The notes below the pieces were generated by a model. That model was given only the letters and a program-made list of their open reading frames with translations. It was not told where the DNA came from and did not search any database. A DNA stretch of 64,000 nt from Salinibacterium sp. SWN167 (GTDB lineage Bacteria; Actinomycetota; Actinomycetes; Actinomycetales; Microbacteriaceae): positions 598,213 to 662,212 of the forward strand of contig NZ_JADYWU010000002.1 of the NCBI RefSeq assembly GCF_015864665.1, written 5' to 3'. A program made the translations under genes and the position numbers. Shown here piece after piece: positions 5,092 through 64,000 of the stretch (its first letter is position 1; each line of letters begins with the position of its first letter).

Positions 5092-6771
5092 ATGACTCAG
5101 GTCCCCGAAGAACCCACCCCCGATGTAACACCCGAAGATGTAACACCCGAACAAAACAGCACCCCAGCCAGCACCCCCGAGACAGCACCTCAGGGTGAAG
5201 CGTCTCCCGTCGCAGCTAACACTGCGGAAACGGCCGCAGCAGCGAACACCGCGGAAACTCCCGCCGGCGTCGACAGCACGCCCGCCCAGACTTCCTCCGC
5301 CGAAGCCGCACCCAGTGCCGCCCCGGTGGAAACCCCGCCCGTTGCAGGCACCGCGATCGCCGCAAACGCTGCGGCTCCAAGCGCACCTGCTGAGCCCGCC
5401 ACATCATCGGCGCCCACAGTGCCCACCATGCAGGCGGATGCAGCCGCAGCCGCAGCCGCAGCCCCAGCCGCAGCGGTAGCGGCAGACGCCCACTCCGGCG
5501 CAAGCTTCGGCCCCGCAGCAGTTCCAGCGGCAGCAGCCGCGGAATCCGCCGCACCCAAAAAGAAGCCCCGCATGACTCTCGGCCTCGTCGCCGGATTCGC
5601 CATCGTCGCGCTCCTCGGCGGTGCATCCGGTGCAGGCGTCACGCTGTGGGCTTTGGGAAATCAAGCCACGTCAGCCGTCAGCGGCACCGCGAGCCCCGCA
5701 TCCATCACCGTCAACGACCCCGGTAATGCAACGCTCGTCACCTCGGTGGTTGCCAAGTCAGCGCCGGCGATCGTCACGATCAACGTAACCGGCCAGAACG
5801 CTGGCGGAAGCGGATCCGGCGTGATCATCAGCGAAGACGGCAACGTCATCACCAACGCTCACGTTGTGACCCTTGACGGCGAAGTTGCTGACCCCACCGT
5901 AACGGTCACCACAAGCGACGGACGCCTCCTTTCGGCAACGGTCGTCGGCTTCGACGCCATCTCTGACATCGCGGTTATTCACATCGATGATGTCAGCGAC
6001 ATGCCTTTCATCACGATCGCCGACTCGAGTGAACTCAACGTTGGCGACAGCACCGTAGCGATCGGTGCACCGCTCGGACTCTCCGGCACCGTCACCAGCG
6101 GAATCGTGAGCGCGCTCAACCGCAGCATCACGATTGCCTCCTCGGCGCTGCCCGAAGACCCTGAAACGAGCCCTGAAGCCCCCGGCGACAGCGGCGACCA
6201 AGACCTCTGGAACTTCGACCTCTACGGCGAAAACGGTCAAGGCAACGGCCAAAGCTCTGCCACTCAAGCCAGCGTTGCTCTCGCCGTCATCCAAACTGAC
6301 GCCGCTATCAACCCCGGCAACTCCGGTGGTGCACTGTTGAACTCCGATGGAGAACTCATCGGCATCAACGTGGCCATCGCATCCTCCGGCGGTAACGAAG
6401 GCAGCATCGGTGTTGGCTTCGCGATCCCGTCCAACACGGCTAGCCGCGTCGCTAACGAGATCCTCGAAACCGGAACGGCAACGCACGGCCTCCTCGGAGC
6501 ATCCGTCGCTGACGTCACCGACGACCCCGCCCAGAGCGACGCTGAAGTAGTCGGCGCGAGCATCGTCGGCATCTCTGACGGTGGAGCAGCAGCGGATGCC
6601 GGACTCCAGGTCGGCGACATCGTCACCGGCTTCGACGGACTGCCCATCACCAATAAGACCGACCTCACCGCCCAGGTGCGAGCATACGCGGCCGGTGAAA
6701 GCGTTCCCTTGACCTACGTCCGTGACGGTAAGGGATACTCCGTCGACGTCACTCTCGGTGCTCTCCAGTAA
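5092..6771 (+). CDS. HtrA/DegP-like trypsin-type serine protease with PDZ domain
   Basis: A 559-residue membrane-anchored protease. Residues 1-155 form a Pro/Ala/Thr-rich cytoplasmic region with a tandem PEDVT repeat (15-bp DNA repeat at 5122-5151). One transmembrane helix lies at about 163-187. The trypsin-like domain follows, with His257 (TNAHVV), Asp292 (SDIAVI) and Ser411 (NPGNSGGALL), all intact. A PDZ domain covers about 465-555 (DAGLQVGDIVTGFDG). HtrA proteases degrade or refold damaged exported proteins and take part in envelope-stress responses. The start is secure: AAAGGAG lies six bases before the ATG. A strong hairpin follows the stop. Confidence 0.95.
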   Translation: MTQVPEEPTPDVTPEDVTPEQNSTPASTPETAPQGEASPVAANTAETAAAANTAETPAGVDSTPAQTSSAEAAPSAAPVETPPVAGTAIAANAAAPSAPAEPATSSAPTVPTMQADAAAAAAAAPAAAVAADAHSGASFGPAAVPAAAAAESAAPKKKPRMTLGLVAGFAIVALLGGASGAGVTLWALGNQATSAVSGTASPASITVNDPGNATLVTSVVAKSAPAIVTINVTGQNAGGSGSGVIISEDGNVITNAHVVTLDGEVADPTVTVTTSDGRLLSATVVGFDAISDIAVIHIDDVSDMPFITIADSSELNVGDSTVAIGAPLGLSGTVTSGIVSALNRSITIASSALPEDPETSPEAPGDSGDQDLWNFDLYGENGQGNGQSSATQASVALAVIQTDAAINPGNSGGALLNSDGELIGINVAIASSGGNEGSIGVGFAIPSNTASRVANEILETGTATHGLLGASVADVTDDPAQSDAEVVGASIVGISDGGAAADAGLQVGDIVTGFDGLPITNKTDLTAQVRAYAAGESVPLTYVRDGKGYSVDVTLGALQ

Positions 6772-16421: not shown

Positions 16422-16622
16422 GGTGGTCTCCTCAGTAGTTCTGGGGCTCGGGTTCAAGGTTCATGATTTACCTACTGTTAACCCGAGATTGGAAAAAACG
16501 ACACACCGTTGTGCGATAGTCAGGCTAACTGTGTCGGCCGAGAACTCCATAGATTTTGGAGGGTTGTTGCCTATTTGTGATGCAGGCTCATTCTCTGCGC
16601 ATCTGATTGGTAGGTTTGGACA

Positions 16623-19076
16623 GTGGAAAACGCCCAAACACCCGACGAGGGCACGAAGTCTGTTGAAACGCCGGTAACGAAGCCCGCGAGCAGCACCCGG
16701 AAGCCGGCAACGGCCCGTGGTTCTCAAGCAAAATCGTCTACCGCCAAGCCAGCAACTCCTGCTACTCGTAAACCTGCCGCCAAGAAGCCCGCTGCTCGCA
16801 AGACGCCTGCCCGCACTACAAGTGCTGCCACAAACGTTGATGCGTCTACCGGTCAGTCGCCGGTCGCACCGAAACCGTCGCCGACGACCGTAAAGAGTGC
16901 CGCAGGCAAGTCGACTTCCGATAAGCCGACACCGGCCGCACCGAAACGTGCTGCTGCGAAGCCGAGTGCCGCGAAGACCACTGCGTCGAAAACCAGTGCT
17001 GCGAAGTCGAGTGCCGCTAAGGCTCCCGCGACGAAGAGCCAAGCGACTCGAAGCTCGACGGCGCCGAAGCCGACCGCGCCAAAACCCACCGCACCCAAGC
17101 CAACTGCGCCGATGCCCGCTGCGTCGGAGACGATTGCGCCCGAGACGACTGCGCCCGACTCTGATGCTGTCGAAGTGGTCAACGTCGAGGCGCTCGTTGA
17201 CGATCTTGTGATCGCCGAGACCGTCGAAGCCACGCCCGAGGCGGAAAAAGCTGTCGATGCCGTGTCGACCGATGAATCCGATACTGCTGAGGCTGCAGTC
17301 GCTGGTATTGGCGCTGTTGAGGCTGTTGCGGACGCCGCTATCGACGGCGACGCTGCTGAGAATGACGCCGCTGCGGGCGCTGCTGTAATCGGAGCCGATG
17401 CTGTAATCGACACCGCTGATGCTGATGCTGATGCTGATGCTGATGCTGATGCAGATGCGGATGCGGACGCCGAACCTGCCGCAGCAGTTTCTGCAGAGAA
17501 GCCGGATGCCGTACTTGCCGGGCTCGCACGCCTGCGTGCCCTTGCCTCACAGTTCGCTGCGCCCGCGGCAGAAGCAGCAGAGAAAAAGGCTCTGGCAGAG
17601 AAGGCTGCTGCCGAAAAGGCTGCGGCTGAGAAAGCCGAAGAAGACGAACGCGAAGCGGAACGTGCAGAGGTTGAGCGTGCTGAGTCTGAGCGCCTAGAAG
17701 CCGAGCGCGCGGAAGCCGAAAAGGCTGAAGCCGAAAACGCGGAAGCCGAGAAGGCTGAAGCGGGGCGTCTGGAAGCGGAGCAGATCGCTGCTGACAAGGC
17801 GGAAGTCGAGGAAGCCGAAGCGGTCACGACCGCGCTTGACGAGACTGACGCTGCGGCGAGCGACGCTGAGACGGACGACGCTGAGACGGACGACGCTGAG
17901 ACGGACGACGCTGAGACGGACGACGCTGAGGACGCTGAAGCAGGGAAGTCCGTTGAGGCTGATGTCGAGCCTGAGGCCCAAATCACGGACGCGAATCGCG
18001 CTGACGCTGACGCTGAGCAAGCCAAAGCCAAAGCCGAAGCCGAAGCCAAAGCCGAAGACGAAGACGAAGCCGAAGTCGACGCTGACTCCGACACCGATGA
18101 GACGGCAACCACGAGCGCCACGGGCGCCAACGCAGAACCTGAGTCCGAAACCGCGGTGGCGGCACCGATGGCTCCCGCGCCGGAACGCGCGGCAGCCGCC
18201 GAGGCGGAACCCACCGACGAAAGCACAACAGAGTCTGAGCTAGAACCTGTGGCTGCGAGCGACGCCCTGGTTGCGGTCGACGCCACTGTGGGTCACGGGC
18301 TCGAGGCGACATCCACGGACGTCGTTTTGGAAGTCAGCGGATTGTCGAAGGGCTTCGGTGACACCGTCGCTGTCGATGACATTCGCTTGAGCGTGCGCGC
18401 GGGAGTGTTCTACGGAATTGTTGGCCCCAACGGCGCCGGTAAAACCACAACGCTCTCTATGATCACCGGACTGCTGCGCCCCGACTCGGGAAGCGCCACC
18501 GTCAACGGAGTCGACGTCTGGGCATCACCAGAAGTCGCCAAACGCTCCATCGGTGTACTGCCCGACCGCTTGCGCATCTTCGACCGCCTCACGGGGTCGC
18601 AACTGCTCTACTACTCGGGAGTGCTGCGCGGACTCGACGCCACCGAAGTGCGCAAGCGTTCCGCTGACCTCGCCACAGCCTTCGGCCTTGATGACGTCAT
18701 GGGCCGCCTCGTAAGCGACTACTCGTCCGGGATGCTCAAGAAAGTCGCTCTCGCCGCAGCAATGATTCACTCGCCGCGCCTGCTCGTGCTCGACGAACCC
18801 TTCGAATCGGTTGACCCTGTTTCGGCGGCAACGGTCACCCGCATCCTCAAGCAGTACGTCGATGCCGGCGGCACCGTACTGCTCTCCAGCCACCGCATGG
18901 AACTCGTTCAACGCGTTTGCAGCCATGTTGCCGTCATCGTCGAAGGACGACTGCTCGCCGACGGCACCATCGACGAAGTGCGCAATGGAATGTCGCTCGA
19001 AGACCGCTTCGTGCAGTTGACCGGCAAGAATTCCAGTGGGGGAGGGCTCGAGTGGTTGAGCAGTTTCTCCGACTGA
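16623..19076 (+). CDS. ABC transporter ATPase with a ~560-residue low-complexity N-terminal extension
   Basis: An 817-residue protein in two parts. Residues 1-150 are Lys/Ala/Pro/Thr-rich and basic, like histone-H1 or HupB tails, with KPTAP tandem repeats. Residues 150-560 are Ala/Glu/Asp-rich and acidic, with (AD)n, repeats of AETDD and a charged AEAEKAEAE-type region likely to form a long helix or stay disordered. Residues about 567-800 form a normal ATPase: Walker A GPNGAGKTT at 601-609, signature YSSGMLKKVALA, Walker B LLVLDEP and SSHRMEL. The start is GTG 16623. The downstream permease overlaps it, so together they form an ABC-2-like exporter of unknown substrate. The extension is extraordinary for this family; most relatives are 250-320 residues. 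Confidence 0.88.
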   Translation: MENAQTPDEGTKSVETPVTKPASSTRKPATARGSQAKSSTAKPATPATRKPAAKKPAARKTPARTTSAATNVDASTGQSPVAPKPSPTTVKSAAGKSTSDKPTPAAPKRAAAKPSAAKTTASKTSAAKSSAAKAPATKSQATRSSTAPKPTAPKPTAPKPTAPMPAASETIAPETTAPDSDAVEVVNVEALVDDLVIAETVEATPEAEKAVDAVSTDESDTAEAAVAGIGAVEAVADAAIDGDAAENDAAAGAAVIGADAVIDTADADADADADADADADADAEPAAAVSAEKPDAVLAGLARLRALASQFAAPAAEAAEKKALAEKAAAEKAAAEKAEEDEREAERAEVERAESERLEAERAEAEKAEAENAEAEKAEAGRLEAEQIAADKAEVEEAEAVTTALDETDAAASDAETDDAETDDAETDDAETDDAEDAEAGKSVEADVEPEAQITDANRADADAEQAKAKAEAEAKAEDEDEAEVDADSDTDETATTSATGANAEPESETAVAAPMAPAPERAAAAEAEPTDESTTESELEPVAASDALVAVDATVGHGLEATSTDVVLEVSGLSKGFGDTVAVDDIRLSVRAGVFYGIVGPNGAGKTTTLSMITGLLRPDSGSATVNGVDVWASPEVAKRSIGVLPDRLRIFDRLTGSQLLYYSGVLRGLDATEVRKRSADLATAFGLDDVMGRLVSDYSSGMLKKVALAAAMIHSPRLLVLDEPFESVDPVSAATVTRILKQYVDAGGTVLLSSHRMELVQRVCSHVAVIVEGRLLADGTIDEVRNGMSLEDRFVQLTGKNSSGGGLEWLSSFSD
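17415..17470 (+). repeat. hexanucleotide tandem repeat coding (Asp-Ala)n
   Basis: About eight near-perfect copies of gctgat, drifting to gcggat at the end, encode an alternating Ala-Asp run inside the ABC ATPase extension. Such perfect hexamers can change length by slippage without shifting the frame. Confidence 0.9.
17868..17935 (+). repeat. 15-bp tandem repeat coding AETDD units
   Basis: Four consecutive copies of a 15-bp unit containing gctgagacggacgac encode AETDD repeats in the acidic extension. The copies are identical, which points to recent expansion. Confidence 0.9.
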
Positions 19077-20623
19077 GACTAACCATCCTGGCGAACGCGT
19101 TTCGCCGAGGACCGCTCGTAGCATCCGCAATGGGGTTGGTGCTGATCTACAGCGCCGTCCTGTTCGTAATGGCCATCCTCGCCGTTGCCGACCTGCGCAA
19201 CACCACCCCCGAAGTTGCGGGCGCCACACTCGTCGTGTTCGGCTCCGCAGCGCTGCTCGGCTTTCTCGTGATGCCCCTCGGGTGGAATGCGGATGACGCA
19301 CTCGACCCGCGCAGATTCTCCTACCTGCCCGTCACTCGCATCCGCCTCGCGCTGCTGCTGTTGCTCGCCGGAGCCGCAAGCATCCCCACGGTGATGCTTG
19401 CCGGGCTCGCCGTCGCTCAAGTAATCGCGTGGTCGGCGCATCCAGCATCCGCCCTTATCGCTGTGCTCTCCGGAATCATCGTTCTCGTCACGGCCATCGT
19501 CGGAGCCCGCCTAGCCAGCCTCATCGCGGCCCGCTACTTGAGCACCAGACGCTTGCGCGAAGGGTTCGGCATCGTCGCGATCGCGCTCGTGGTTGCCTCG
19601 CTGCCGATCGCCGTCATGCTCGCTCTCGCCGACTACCAATCCCAAGTCCTGCCGGCCATCCGCCGCGTTGCCGCAGTAATGGAATGGACACCCCTCGGTG
19701 TTGCCTTCAGCGCGCCGGCTTCCGCAGCAGCGGGAGACAGCAGCGACGTTCTGGGCAAGCTCGCCATTGCGGTCGGCTTTTTGATCGTTCTCGCTGCCTG
19801 CTGGTACTTCCTGCTGGGCTACGTTCTCTCTCGCCCTGAGCGCAGTGCCGTCGCAACATATCGTTCGGGCCTCGGCTGGTTCCGTCTCATGCCCTCGACC
19901 CCATTGGGCGCCATCGCGGCACGAAGCCTCAGCTACTGGGCTCGGGATGCACGCTACTTCGTTGCACTCGCCGCCATCCCCATCATTCCTATCGGCATGG
20001 TTGCCGCTCTTCTCGTCGGCGGCATCGGAGCCGACGTGATCGCGTGGATTCCCGTGCCCGTCATGTGCCTCTTCCTCGGCTGGAGTGCCCACAACGACGT
20101 CGCTCACGACAACACCGCACTCTGGACCCACGTCTCGGCCCACACGCGTGGCTCCGACGACCGCTGGGGGCGCATCGTTCCCAACCTGCTCGTGGGCATC
20201 CCGCTCGCCGTCGTCGGCAGTATCCTCACGGTACTTATCGTTGGTAATGGTGAAGCACTACCCGGCCTCATCGGGCTCAGCCTCTGCCTACTCTTTGCGG
20301 GTCTTGGCGTTTCCAGCGTCAGCTCAGCCGCCTTCCCTTATGCGGCGCCACTTCCAGGGCACGGTGCGTTCATCCAACCTCAAGCGCTCGTCTCGAACGC
20401 CGCCACGGTGCAATCGTTCACGTTCGCATTCACGGTGCTATTCGGCCTGCCGGTCTTGGGAGTCGTATTCTTCAACCCCTTCACCGATCTGCAACCACAG
20501 TGGGCAGCCTTCATCGTCGGCTTGGCCGTCGGTCTTGTCGTGCTCGTCATCGGCGTCTACTGGGGCGGACGAATCATGGTGCGCCGCGGCCCCGAACTGC
20601 TCGCACTCTCCTCACAGAACTGA
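19052..20623 (+). CDS. ABC transporter permease, multi-spanning membrane protein
   Basis: A 523-residue membrane protein with about ten to twelve hydrophobic segments, for example MGLVLIYSAVLFVMAILAV, TLVVFGSAALLGFLVMPL and VGLAVGLVVLVIGVYW. A large exporter-type permease, no soluble domain seen. The chosen start is GTG 19052, preceded by GGGGGAGGG and overlapping the ATPase gene by 25 bases; the frame is open further upstream, but only antisense to sense within the ATPase gene. The tight overlap makes it the partner of the unusual ATPase. The substrate is unknown. Confidence 0.82.
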   Translation: MVEQFLRLRLTILANAFRRGPLVASAMGLVLIYSAVLFVMAILAVADLRNTTPEVAGATLVVFGSAALLGFLVMPLGWNADDALDPRRFSYLPVTRIRLALLLLLAGAASIPTVMLAGLAVAQVIAWSAHPASALIAVLSGIIVLVTAIVGARLASLIAARYLSTRRLREGFGIVAIALVVASLPIAVMLALADYQSQVLPAIRRVAAVMEWTPLGVAFSAPASAAAGDSSDVLGKLAIAVGFLIVLAACWYFLLGYVLSRPERSAVATYRSGLGWFRLMPSTPLGAIAARSLSYWARDARYFVALAAIPIIPIGMVAALLVGGIGADVIAWIPVPVMCLFLGWSAHNDVAHDNTALWTHVSAHTRGSDDRWGRIVPNLLVGIPLAVVGSILTVLIVGNGEALPGLIGLSLCLLFAGLGVSSVSSAAFPYAAPLPGHGAFIQPQALVSNAATVQSFTFAFTVLFGLPVLGVVFFNPFTDLQPQWAAFIVGLAVGLVVLVIGVYWGGRIMVRRGPELLALSSQN

Positions 20624-20694: not shown

Positions 20695-20955
20695 ATGGCT
20701 GACACCGATATCACTGGCGGCGGAACCGACACTCTCGACCGCGAACTCGAAGAACTGCTCAACCAAGAGCAGGTCGAAGAGGGCGACCACGAGCGCTTCT
20801 CTCACTACGCACCCAAAAACAAGATCATGGAATCGGCGCTCTCGGGCAAGCCGATTCGTGCGCTGTGTGGAAAGCTCTGGACTCCGGGTCGCGACCCCGA
20901 AAAGTTCCCCATCTGCCCAACCTGCAAAGAGGTCTACGAAAAGATGAAGGGCTAA
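20695..20955 (+). CDS. DUF3039 domain protein
   Basis: An 86-residue protein matching the actinobacterial DUF3039 family. The N-terminal half is acidic and the C-terminal half carries ALCGKLWTPGRDPEKFPICPTCKEVYEKM. Its Cys-x(n)-Cys-x-x-Cys arrangement looks like a small zinc site, but the function is unknown. The family is widespread in high-GC actinobacteria and often sits beside pncB or murI, as here. It is preceded by a purine-rich stretch (ggaagtagaatcgactc) before the ATG. Confidence 0.88.
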   Translation: MADTDITGGGTDTLDRELEELLNQEQVEEGDHERFSHYAPKNKIMESALSGKPIRALCGKLWTPGRDPEKFPICPTCKEVYEKMKG

Positions 20956-58923: not shown

Positions 58924-60459
58924 TTATCCTTGGCGGGCGCTGGTGCGTCGACGGAGCGCGATGAGAGCGAGGCCGGACAACAGCAGCAACGCCGTGGCGC
59001 CCAGGGCAGGTGTCGGATCGATTCCGGTGGCCGCGAGTTCTGCAGTTGCGGTAACCGTGGTGGCCGCTACTACGGCGGCCCAGGTCGCGACAAGCGTGAT
59101 GGGAGCGGTGACGGGAGAGCCGAAGTTGTAGCTGGTGCCGTTGACGGTCCAGCCGGAGAAGGTGTATCCGTCGCGGGTGGGCGCGGTGGGGGCGGTGACA
59201 GTGTCGCCAGCGACGATCGCTGCAGCGGGGGCGCTGATGCCGCCGGCCGCATCGAAGCTGACGAGGTAATTGAACCCGATGGCGATGCTTCCGCCTTCAC
59301 CGACTAAGGAAGTTGCAGCCGAGTAGCCGACCCCGGTCGGAGTGACCGTGTTGGTTATCAGGGATGCTCTAGGGCCTCCGCCATCGAGTGAGGCACCAGT
59401 ATTCGGGGTGCCGTGAATATCCAGGGTGCCCGGGTTCCCGTCGTCGCCGCCGCCGATGCCAGCGGCGTTGCTTCCTCCGGTTGCGGTCGTGGTGCCGCCG
59501 GTGATGGTGGTCGTTTCGGCGCCAGAGCTAAACGGGCCGCCCCCGATGCCAGCACCGCGCTCGCCGCCGTTTGCGGCGACGGTGCCTCCGTTGATCATGG
59601 TGATGCCGCCACCGGCGCCATCGCCTCCGCCGATACCGGCGCCGGCGGAGCCGCCGTTTGCGGCGACGCTGCCTCCGTTGATCGTGGTGATGCCGCCGTT
59701 AGCGAATTCGCCTCCGCCGATGCCGGCGCTGCCATAGCCGCCGTTTGCGGTGGTGGTGCCGCCGTTGGTGGTGGTGGTGCCGCCGCTGCCGTAGTAGCCT
59801 CCGCCGATGCCGGCGCTGCCATAGCCGCCGGTTGCGGTTGTGGTGCCGCCGTTGATGGTGGTGGTGCCGCCGCTGCCGTAGAGGCCTCCGCCGATGCCGG
59901 CTCCGAAGTAGCCGCCGGTTGCGGTGATGGTGCCTCCGTTGATGGTGGTGGTGCCGCCGCTGCCCAAGGAGACACCACCGATGCCTGCTCCGGATAAGCC
60001 GCCGGTTGCGGTGATGGTGCCGGCGTTAATGATGATGGTTCCGGCATCGCTGGCATCGACGAGGGCGCAGGCTGCGGCACGGCCTCCGATCCCGGAAGCG
60101 CTGTCTCCGCCGGTCACGTTGAGGGTGCCTCCGCCGGTGGCATTGATGATGAGTGTGGAGGTGCTCGGCACGCCGATTGCGGCCAGAGGGCCACTTGGGC
60201 TGGTGATGTTGAGCGTGTACCCATTCAGGTCGAGGGTGATTGCCTCACCATCGTCGATCGCAAGCGAGTCTCCGCCGTCAGAGTCGATATCGGCGTCGAG
60301 CACGACGGTGTCGCCGTCGACTGCGAACGCAGTCTTGAGTGCACTCCAGCTGTCTACGGTGACGCTCGCAGCGGTCGCGGGCACCGCGACGGCGAGAGCC
60401 AAGGGGATGGCCAGCGCGGTTGCGAGCGCAGCGGTTTTCAGAAATGGGCGTGCGAGCAT
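58924..60459 (-). CDS. sorted surface protein with Gly/Thr-rich repeats (LAATG)
   Basis: A 511-residue surface protein. A signal peptide (MLARPFLKTAALATALAIP) leads to a beta-helix-like N-terminal domain with many Ile/Asn/Gly/Thr-rich repeats of about 27 residues (INGGTTTATGGYGSAGIGGG). An InlB-type B repeat follows (LVSFDAAGGISAPAAAI, GYTFSGWTVNGTSYNF). LAATGIDPTP, a hydrophobic helix and RRRTS form a class-E sortase signal. GGAG lies before the ATG at 60457-60459; a longer start is possible. Confidence 0.85.
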   Translation of the reverse strand: MLARPFLKTAALATALAIPLALAVAVPATAASVTVDSWSALKTAFAVDGDTVVLDADIDSDGGDSLAIDDGEAITLDLNGYTLNITSPSGPLAAIGVPSTSTLIINATGGGTLNVTGGDSASGIGGRAAACALVDASDAGTIIINAGTITATGGLSGAGIGGVSLGSGGTTTINGGTITATGGYFGAGIGGGLYGSGGTTTINGGTTTATGGYGSAGIGGGYYGSGGTTTTNGGTTTANGGYGSAGIGGGEFANGGITTINGGSVAANGGSAGAGIGGGDGAGGGITMINGGTVAANGGERGAGIGGGPFSSGAETTTITGGTTTATGGSNAAGIGGGDDGNPGTLDIHGTPNTGASLDGGGPRASLITNTVTPTGVGYSAATSLVGEGGSIAIGFNYLVSFDAAGGISAPAAAIVAGDTVTAPTAPTRDGYTFSGWTVNGTSYNFGSPVTAPITLVATWAAVVAATTVTATAELAATGIDPTPALGATALLLLSGLALIALRRRTSARQG

Positions 60460-62793: not shown

Positions 62794-64000
62794 TTACCGC
62801 TGAGGAGCGTTGCCGCGGCGATGGAATGCAACGAGAGCGATTCCCATCAGCAGCAGTAGCGCTGCGGCGCCCAAACTGGGCATTAGGTCGATGCCGGTCG
62901 CTGCGAGCTCTCCGGTGACCGCGGCCACTTCGGTCCAGGTTGCGGTGAGTGTGATTGGTTCGGTCACGGGGGTGGTGAAGTTGTAGGTGGTGCCGTTGGA
63001 GGTCCAGCCGGTGAAGGTGTAGCCGTCGCGGGTGGGGTCTGTCGGTGCGGTGATCGTGCTGCTGTCTGTGATGGTCTCGGCGGCGGTGCTGGTGCCGCCG
63101 TCGGCGTCGAAAGTGACGAGGTGGGTGACGGCGGCCACTTCGGCCCAGGTTGCAGTAAGCGTGATTGGTTCGGTCACGGGGGTGGTGAAGTTGTAGGTGG
63201 TGCCGTTGGAGGTCCAGCCGGTGAAGGTGTAGCCGTCGCGGGTGGGGTCTGTCGGTGCGGCGATGGTGGTGCCGTCTGTGATGGTCTCGGCGGCGGTGCT
63301 GGTGCCGCCGTCGGCGTCGAAAGTGACGAGGTGGGTGACGGCGGCCACTTCGGCCCAGGTTGCGGTGAGTGTGATTGGTTTGGTCACGGGGGTGGTGAAG
63401 TTGTAGGTGGTGCCGTTGGCGGTCCATCCGCTGAAGGTGTAGCCGTCGCGGGTGGGGTCTGTCGGTGCGGTGATCGTGCTGCCGTCGGGGATTGCCTCAG
63501 CGGGGGTGCTGGTGCCGCCGTCGGCGTCGAAGGTGACGAGGTAATTGAACCCAATGATGATGTTTCCGCCGTTGCCGATGAGGGAAGTGGCCGCAGAGTA
63601 GCCGACACCGGCCGGCGTTACCGTGTTGACGATCGGGGACGCTGATGAGCCGCCACCGTCGAGTGCGGCACCAGCATTCGGGGTGCCCCGAACGTCTAGA
63701 GTGCCCGGCGCGCCAGCGTCGTAGCCGCCGCCAATTCCGGCTCCGCCGTCTTGCCCGCCGGTCGCGGTGATGGAGCCGCCCGTAATGGTGGTGGTGCCGC
63801 CGGTTCCGTTGTTGCCGCCGCCGATGCCTGCGCCGCCTGCGCTGCCGGTTGCGGTGGTGGTGCCGCTTTTGATGGTGGTGGTGCCGCCGGTTCCGTTGTT
63901 GCCGCCGCCGATGCCTGCGCCGCCGGCGCCGCCGGTTGCGAGGATTGTGCCGCTGTTAACGATGACGGAGCCGCCATCGTTGCCATCGTTGCCGCCGATG
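62794..64000 (-). CDS. sorted surface protein with InlB-like repeats (N-terminus beyond window)
   Basis: At least 400 residues, truncated at the window end. The visible part starts in Gly/Thr/Ile-rich beta-helix-like repeats (GTTTIKSGTTTATGSAGGAG), then a GFNYLVTFDADGG segment. Three InlB B-type repeats of 70 residues follow, each with LVTFDADGGTST, GYTFTGWTSNGTTYNF and PITLTATW. GELAATGIDLMPSLG, a hydrophobic helix and HRRGNAPQR form a sortase signal. It is a paralogue of the protein at 58924-60459, with two extra repeats. Confidence 0.88.
   Translation of the reverse strand, partial: IGGNDGNDGGSVIVNSGTILATGGAGGAGIGGGNNGTGGTTTIKSGTTTATGSAGGAGIGGGNNGTGGTTTITGGSITATGGQDGGAGIGGGYDAGAPGTLDVRGTPNAGAALDGGGSSASPIVNTVTPAGVGYSAATSLIGNGGNIIIGFNYLVTFDADGGTSTPAEAIPDGSTITAPTDPTRDGYTFSGWTANGTTYNFTTPVTKPITLTATWAEVAAVTHLVTFDADGGTSTAAETITDGTTIAAPTDPTRDGYTFTGWTSNGTTYNFTTPVTEPITLTATWAEVAAVTHLVTFDADGGTSTAAETITDSSTITAPTDPTRDGYTFTGWTSNGTTYNFTTPVTEPITLTATWTEVAAVTGELAATGIDLMPSLGAAALLLLMGIALVAFHRRGNAPQR
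62927..63546 (-). repeat. three 210-bp near-identical tandem repeats
   Basis: The segments beginning with acttcggcccaggttgc (63131, 63341) and the similar one near 62926 recur every 210 bp, with only a few differences between the first two copies. They encode the InlB-like domains. The third copy toward 63546 is more diverged. Confidence 0.92.

Follow-up and report, generated by a model that had tools for sequence, protein, structure and literature searches.

In Microbacteriaceae, the ATPase of an ABC exporter encoded by two genes typically bears a long charged extension that may serve as an electrostatic tether

Salinibacterium sp. SWN167 belongs to the Microbacteriaceae and has a genome of about 3.0 Mb, from which a window of 64,000 nucleotides was analysed. 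At positions 16623..19076 (+) the window contains an open reading frame of 817 aa, identified by its ABC_tran match and its orthologs at the same locus as an ABC ATPase gene with an N-terminal extension. The ATPase domain occupies approximately residues 564-817 (18312..19073, +), within which the Pfam model ABC_tran (PF00005) covers residues 585-727 (E 5.5e-26, 92.2 bits against a cut-off of 25). Walker A (GPNGAGKTT), signature (YSSGM), Walker B (LLVLDEP) and H-loop (SSH) are all present and were found to be invariant or almost so across 36 orthologs. By domain and motifs, the 817-aa protein is an ABC transporter ATPase. The first-pass annotation had described a canonical ABC ATPase behind about 560 residues, and open reading frame, coordinates and composition bear this out: about 563 residues precede the domain, and the ABC_tran match lies in the C-terminal part. 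An antisense open reading frame of 477 aa (16853-18286, -), very rich in Ala and Ser, probably arises as a side effect of the repeats on the sense strand and was not considered a gene.

The start of a partner permease gene (19052..20623, +, 523 aa) overlaps the end of the ATPase gene. The permease is 99% identical to that of Salinibacterium sp. NG253, the closest named relative, and returned no significant family in Pfam and NCBIfam profile searches. Its structural model is mostly helical (pLDDT 72.7), and the top PDB fold match is the Rv1217c-Rv1218c pump of M. tuberculosis (PDB 8k1m, 8k1n, 8k1o), which shares the two-gene architecture; the rank-1 match to 8k1n_C is full-length (prob 0.99) but weak (E 0.077, TM 0.39), and no sequence match to the permease was found. 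For the ATPase domain, Rv1218c gives a match with E 1.3e-34, and as the alignments begin at residue 2 or 8 of the Rv1218c chains listed (289-311 aa), these chains are without such a tail. The best NCBIfam model for the ATPase domain is that of the DrrA-type drug-exporter ATPases (TIGR01188, E 4.9e-61), which spans the ATPase and not the tail; with 206.7 bits against a cut-off of 312.45, the domain falls outside this subfamily. A gene for a DUF3039 protein (20695..20955, +; PF11238, E 4.8e-30) is a conserved neighbour, located downstream of the exporter in 122 of 123 ortholog loci. This linkage may be a clue; no paper on the function of DUF3039 was found in the open literature searched.

Upstream of the GTG at 16623 lies an extended -10 element, TTGGTAGGTT (16607..16616, +). 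Counted from this codon, its TA falls at -12/-11 and its T at -7, a placement that would imply a leaderless mRNA. The pattern TTGnTA(G/C)GTT occurs at fixed spacing from an in-frame G/ATG in 115 of 128 ortholog loci, in a few of them one base further off; of the 13 loci without the element, five run off the end of a contig and L071 stems from another family. Chance matches are very rare, TTGnTA being found at that distance from only 104 of the 21,623 GTGs in ortholog-locus DNA. In M. tuberculosis, the TANNNT -10 element is positioned 7-12 bp upstream of the transcription start site (TSS), and roughly one in four of the genes for which a primary TSS is known have no leader (PMC3898074). The placement of TTGGTAGGTT agrees with this position. 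Given the fixed promoter spacing and the M. tuberculosis -10 geometry, the mRNA most likely begins, without a leader, at an inferred transcription start at GTG 16623, and the long form would be the product. A sigma-70 consensus scan of the region found no promoter, because this extended -10 element is not accompanied by a canonical -35. On the strength of this genome comparison, translation of the tail from the far upstream start at 16623 can be regarded as shown, and a start near residue 560, a reservation attached to the first-pass annotation, is ruled out by promoter spacing and conservation.

Of the 296 Microbacteriaceae genomes of good quality, 226 have a permease ortholog, and of the 76 genera searched, 59 do; several genera without a permease match have small genomes of 0.9-1.8 Mb. 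Tail lengths were determined for the ATPase beside the permease in a sample with approximately one genome for each genus, to which 80 named loci were added. All 115 orthologs with a placeable start, from many genera, bear some tail, the length of which ranges from 32 to 719 aa with a median of 257 aa and is at least 100 aa in 106 of them. In the genera sampled across the family, the extension is typical of the locus and not an oddity of the strain, so that its earlier description as unusual has to be given up. The recurrence of the same-locus tail in independent genomes also rules out an assembly fusion, as well as the earlier concern that relatives might lack the extension. A paralogous ATPase-permease pair in the same genomes (ATPase 61% identical in the SWN167 genome) has only a few residues before the domain, and pairs from other families have about 0-50, with a few of their starts ambiguous. 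In one relative (G009:C1:2050928-2052470) the match to the permease of this paralogous pair is divided between two open frames, and this copy looks broken. In a midpoint-rooted tree of the permeases, a single clade (99/98) unites all copies with a tail, and the paralogs group with other families; the grouping is limited by the midpoint root, by a long-branch row (G056) beside the clade and by one clade member (G035) without a tail measurement. Read most simply, the tree implies a single gain of the tail, on the stem of the family-specific exporter copy.

Within the Salinibacterium protein, the predicted order of a basic followed by an acidic part was confirmed, as residues 1-159 carry a net charge of +24 and the remaining extension one of -98, and none of 1000 shuffles was as extreme. 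The basic segment (residues 1-165, starting VENAQTPDEG; 16623..17117, +) consists of 14% K, 23% A and 14% P. The HC2 profile (PF07382) covers residues 23-177 with 22.2 bits, under its gathering cut-off of 40 and thus short of HC2 membership; of the earlier term histone H1-like, only the Lys/Ala/Pro-rich composition holds, and the term is a compositional label only. Two tandem repeats were found in the coding sequence: a hexanucleotide repeat, (GCTGAT)n, encoding (AD)n (17415..17464, +; 95% matches), which differs in L039-L043, and a 15-bp repeat encoding AETDD (17861..17930, +), with 4.7 copies and units that are 100% identical. In a sister species (G010/L039; permease 99% identical), the AETDD array has fewer copies and is 15 codons shorter, in frame. 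As the copy number differs between sister species, the repeats are recent and variable in length, in line with the first-pass annotation. A search for similar tails elsewhere in the same genome, the sensitivity of which is limited by low-complexity handling, gave none at E<=1e-4. Elsewhere in the window, a cluster of short repeats at 5122-5489, including (GCAGCC)n, suggests another Ala/Pro-rich segment, and long tandem repeats of 87 bp and 210 bp at 59536-60043 and 62914-64000 possibly belong to a repetitive surface protein.

The extension further contains a conserved hydrophobic motif and a predicted long helix, neither of which had been anticipated. The motif, EKPDAVLAGLARLRALASQFAAP (residues 292-314, 23 residues; 17496..17564, +), is predicted to form a short helix (residues 296-311 in the AlphaFold2 model), and the adjoining Ala/Glu/Lys/Arg-rich segment of about 98 residues (residues 315-412; 17565..17858, +) was modelled as one long helix with pLDDT values mostly of 88-97. 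In the model, residues 1-295 are without helix or strand, and pLDDT stays under 50 throughout residues 1-262 and over the greater part of 264-294. The acidic linker (residues 413-563; 17859..18311, +) is mostly of low confidence, again largely below 50, with a helix at 459-478, and its last 17 or so residues (ALVAVDATVGHGLEATS) are better conserved; the ATPase fold was recovered. According to the model, the extension is not uniformly disordered: the earlier description fits the N-terminal half and the larger part of the acidic linker but not residues ~296-412. Long Ala/Glu/Lys helices readily come out of structure prediction, and the excess of i,i+4 opposite-charge pairs within residues 315-412, a mark of single alpha helices of the ER/K type, is not significant (13 versus 9.4 expected; 200 of 2000 shuffles as high), which is why this helix is treated as a prediction. 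In a comparison of six close relatives, the ATPase domain (dN/dS 0-0.04) and residues 293-330 (0-0.08) were more constrained than the basic segment (0.2-0.34) and the acidic part (0.23-1.0); only the ranking of segments is safe, as low-complexity alignments are uncertain. Judged by this ranking, the EKPDAVLAGLARLRALASQFAAP motif is as constrained as the ATPase domain.

Across the orthologs, 105 of 115 tails have a 50-aa patch with a net charge of at least +6 and 56 of 115 an acidic block (-10 or lower), counts that are not corrected for relatedness; the basic part is thus more widespread, and the acidic part elaborates on it. In 98 of 113 cases, K/(K+R) of the tail exceeds that of the ATPase domain (p=2.6e-15, not phylogenetically corrected). 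Mainly acidic tails in three genera (L068, L083, L086) retain a short RYPRKRPQRR-like R/K cluster some 40-60 residues from the start. A Pfam search of six divergent orthologs identified no known domain in the tails, and a hydrophobic motif common to all tails was looked for and rejected, the signal being weak outside the Salinibacterium clade. In some clades (L111:3763-4719; L115:3045-4067, -; L174:4093-5022; L185 from 3895) the tail is short and starts with an amphipathic motif similar to ESILAKFDxLIxKLExDAA, which may functionally replace the Lys/Ala/Pro segment.

The closest counterparts of the basic segment are found on proteins of other kinds. The KPAA tail of AlgP has been reported to bind DNA and to position and space polyP granules, and for that of PhaF a role in linking granules to the nucleoid is assumed (PMC9239181). 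These Pseudomonas proteins share with the exporter ATPase a disordered Lys/Ala/Pro tail on an unrelated domain and variation in repeat number (PMC9239181), and the basic segment resembles the KPAA tethers both in its Lys/Pro/Ala-rich composition and in its pLDDT below 50. However, the AlgP and PhaF tails are C-terminal and located on granule-associated or DNA-binding proteins, whereas the exporter tail is N-terminal on an ATPase, has fewer exact KPAA units and includes an acidic part. Histone H1-like lysine repeats also occur in actinobacterial TopA, Ku and HupB/HupS, and in TopA, Ku and HupB they contribute to the binding of DNA (PMC7398561); these proteins work directly on DNA, whereas the tailed ATPase belongs to a membrane complex. 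A search of the openly accessible literature found no papers on such an extension.

By analogy with these systems, we tentatively favour, at somewhat less than even confidence, the reading that the basic tail of this exporter ATPase binds a polyanion and positions or clusters the exporter rather than taking part in transport. ATPase and 523-aa permease would form a two-gene, Rv1218c/Rv1217c-like ABC exporter with two tails on its cytoplasmic face, as expected from ABC architecture. From N- to C-terminus, each tail would comprise the flexible basic Lys/Ala/Pro segment and, in this clade, the predicted hydrophobic helix, the predicted A/E/K-rich helix and the acidic linker. The basic segment may bind polyanions such as nucleoid DNA, RNA or polyphosphate non-specifically, as suggested by the KPAA tails of AlgP and PhaF, and helix and acidic linker may set its reach and, as spacer and counter-charge, keep it off the acidic part and the membrane. 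Tail length would be free to drift because selection would act on no more than charge, flexibility and some short motifs. The near-universal basic patch and the preference for Lys over Arg are compatible with a polyanion or nucleoid tether. Further points in its favour are the conserved leaderless promoter, the family-wide occurrence of the tail in a single clade next to tail-free paralogs and other families, the basic clusters retained in acidic tails, and dN/dS values below 1 in the basic segment and of 0-0.08 around the motif. Against a tether count the HC2 score below its cut-off, the poor conservation of the tail sequence between genera and the net negative charge of the whole tail in 49 of 115 cases, Salinibacterium sp. 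SWN167 among them. In addition, seven of 115 tails are without any 50-aa patch above +3, which indicates that a strong basic segment is not obligatory. Unlikely is the more far-reaching proposal of a family-wide class of ABC exporters whose ATPase tails would physically connect the cytoplasmic membrane with the nucleoid or with polyphosphate bodies and whose tail length would be tuned rapidly by repeat slippage.

A rival explanation is a tolerated, near-neutral low-complexity tail, an entropic bristle or solubility aid grown by slippage in a GC-rich genome after duplication, which would do little more than stay flexible and soluble. The 20-fold variation in length, the slippage-type repeats that are unequal between sister species, the dN/dS near 1 of the acidic half in the closest pair and the partly replaced composition in some clades are all in line with this. 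However, the presence of a tail in all 115 orthologs with a placed start, from many genera, the motif constraint equal to that of the ATPase core, the basic patch in 105 tails, the Lys-over-Arg preference exceeding that of the ATPase domain and the tail-free paralog in the same genomes speak against it, and this explanation is held to be somewhat less probable than a tether. A regulatory or binding arm was also considered, in which the conserved hydrophobic helix (residues 296-311) would dock on permease, membrane or another protein, the charged stretches would be linkers, and different short amphipathic or aromatic motifs would do the docking in other genera. The low dN/dS of the motif (0-0.08) and its predicted helix are consistent with such an arm, as are several short tails that largely consist of an ILAKFDxLIxKLE-like helix and the short hydrophobic clusters in other genera (24 of 109 tails at p<=0.05, 11 at p<=0.01, versus shuffles). 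However, these clusters are unalignable between clades, most tails have none above chance, the hydrophobic moment of the EKPDAVLAGLARLRALASQFAAP motif is modest, and docking is not readable from the model because its pTM is 0.41; we regard an arm of this kind as less probable than a tether but still a live alternative. That the extension is an artefact of a misplaced start or an assembly fusion is extremely improbable: GTG/TTG codons do occur internally and closer to the ATPase domain, but the promoter with its fixed spacing sits at the far upstream start, independent assemblies keep the frame open through the extension, and the dN/dS of the basic segment is below 1.

Bacterial proteins known to carry histone H1-like tails are associated with DNA or with granules, and here a fast-evolving tail of this kind is found throughout a family on the motor subunit of a membrane exporter. 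Proteins with such tails could be truncated by automatic start-site calls. If the tail binds DNA or polyphosphate, the exporter would make a transporter with an anchor in the cytoplasmic interior accessible to study, and the natural length variants and the tail-free paralog would serve as built-in controls. Regardless of binding, the locus offers a clear example of an expanded tail that was acquired, in the simplest reading, by one paralog and kept across the family.
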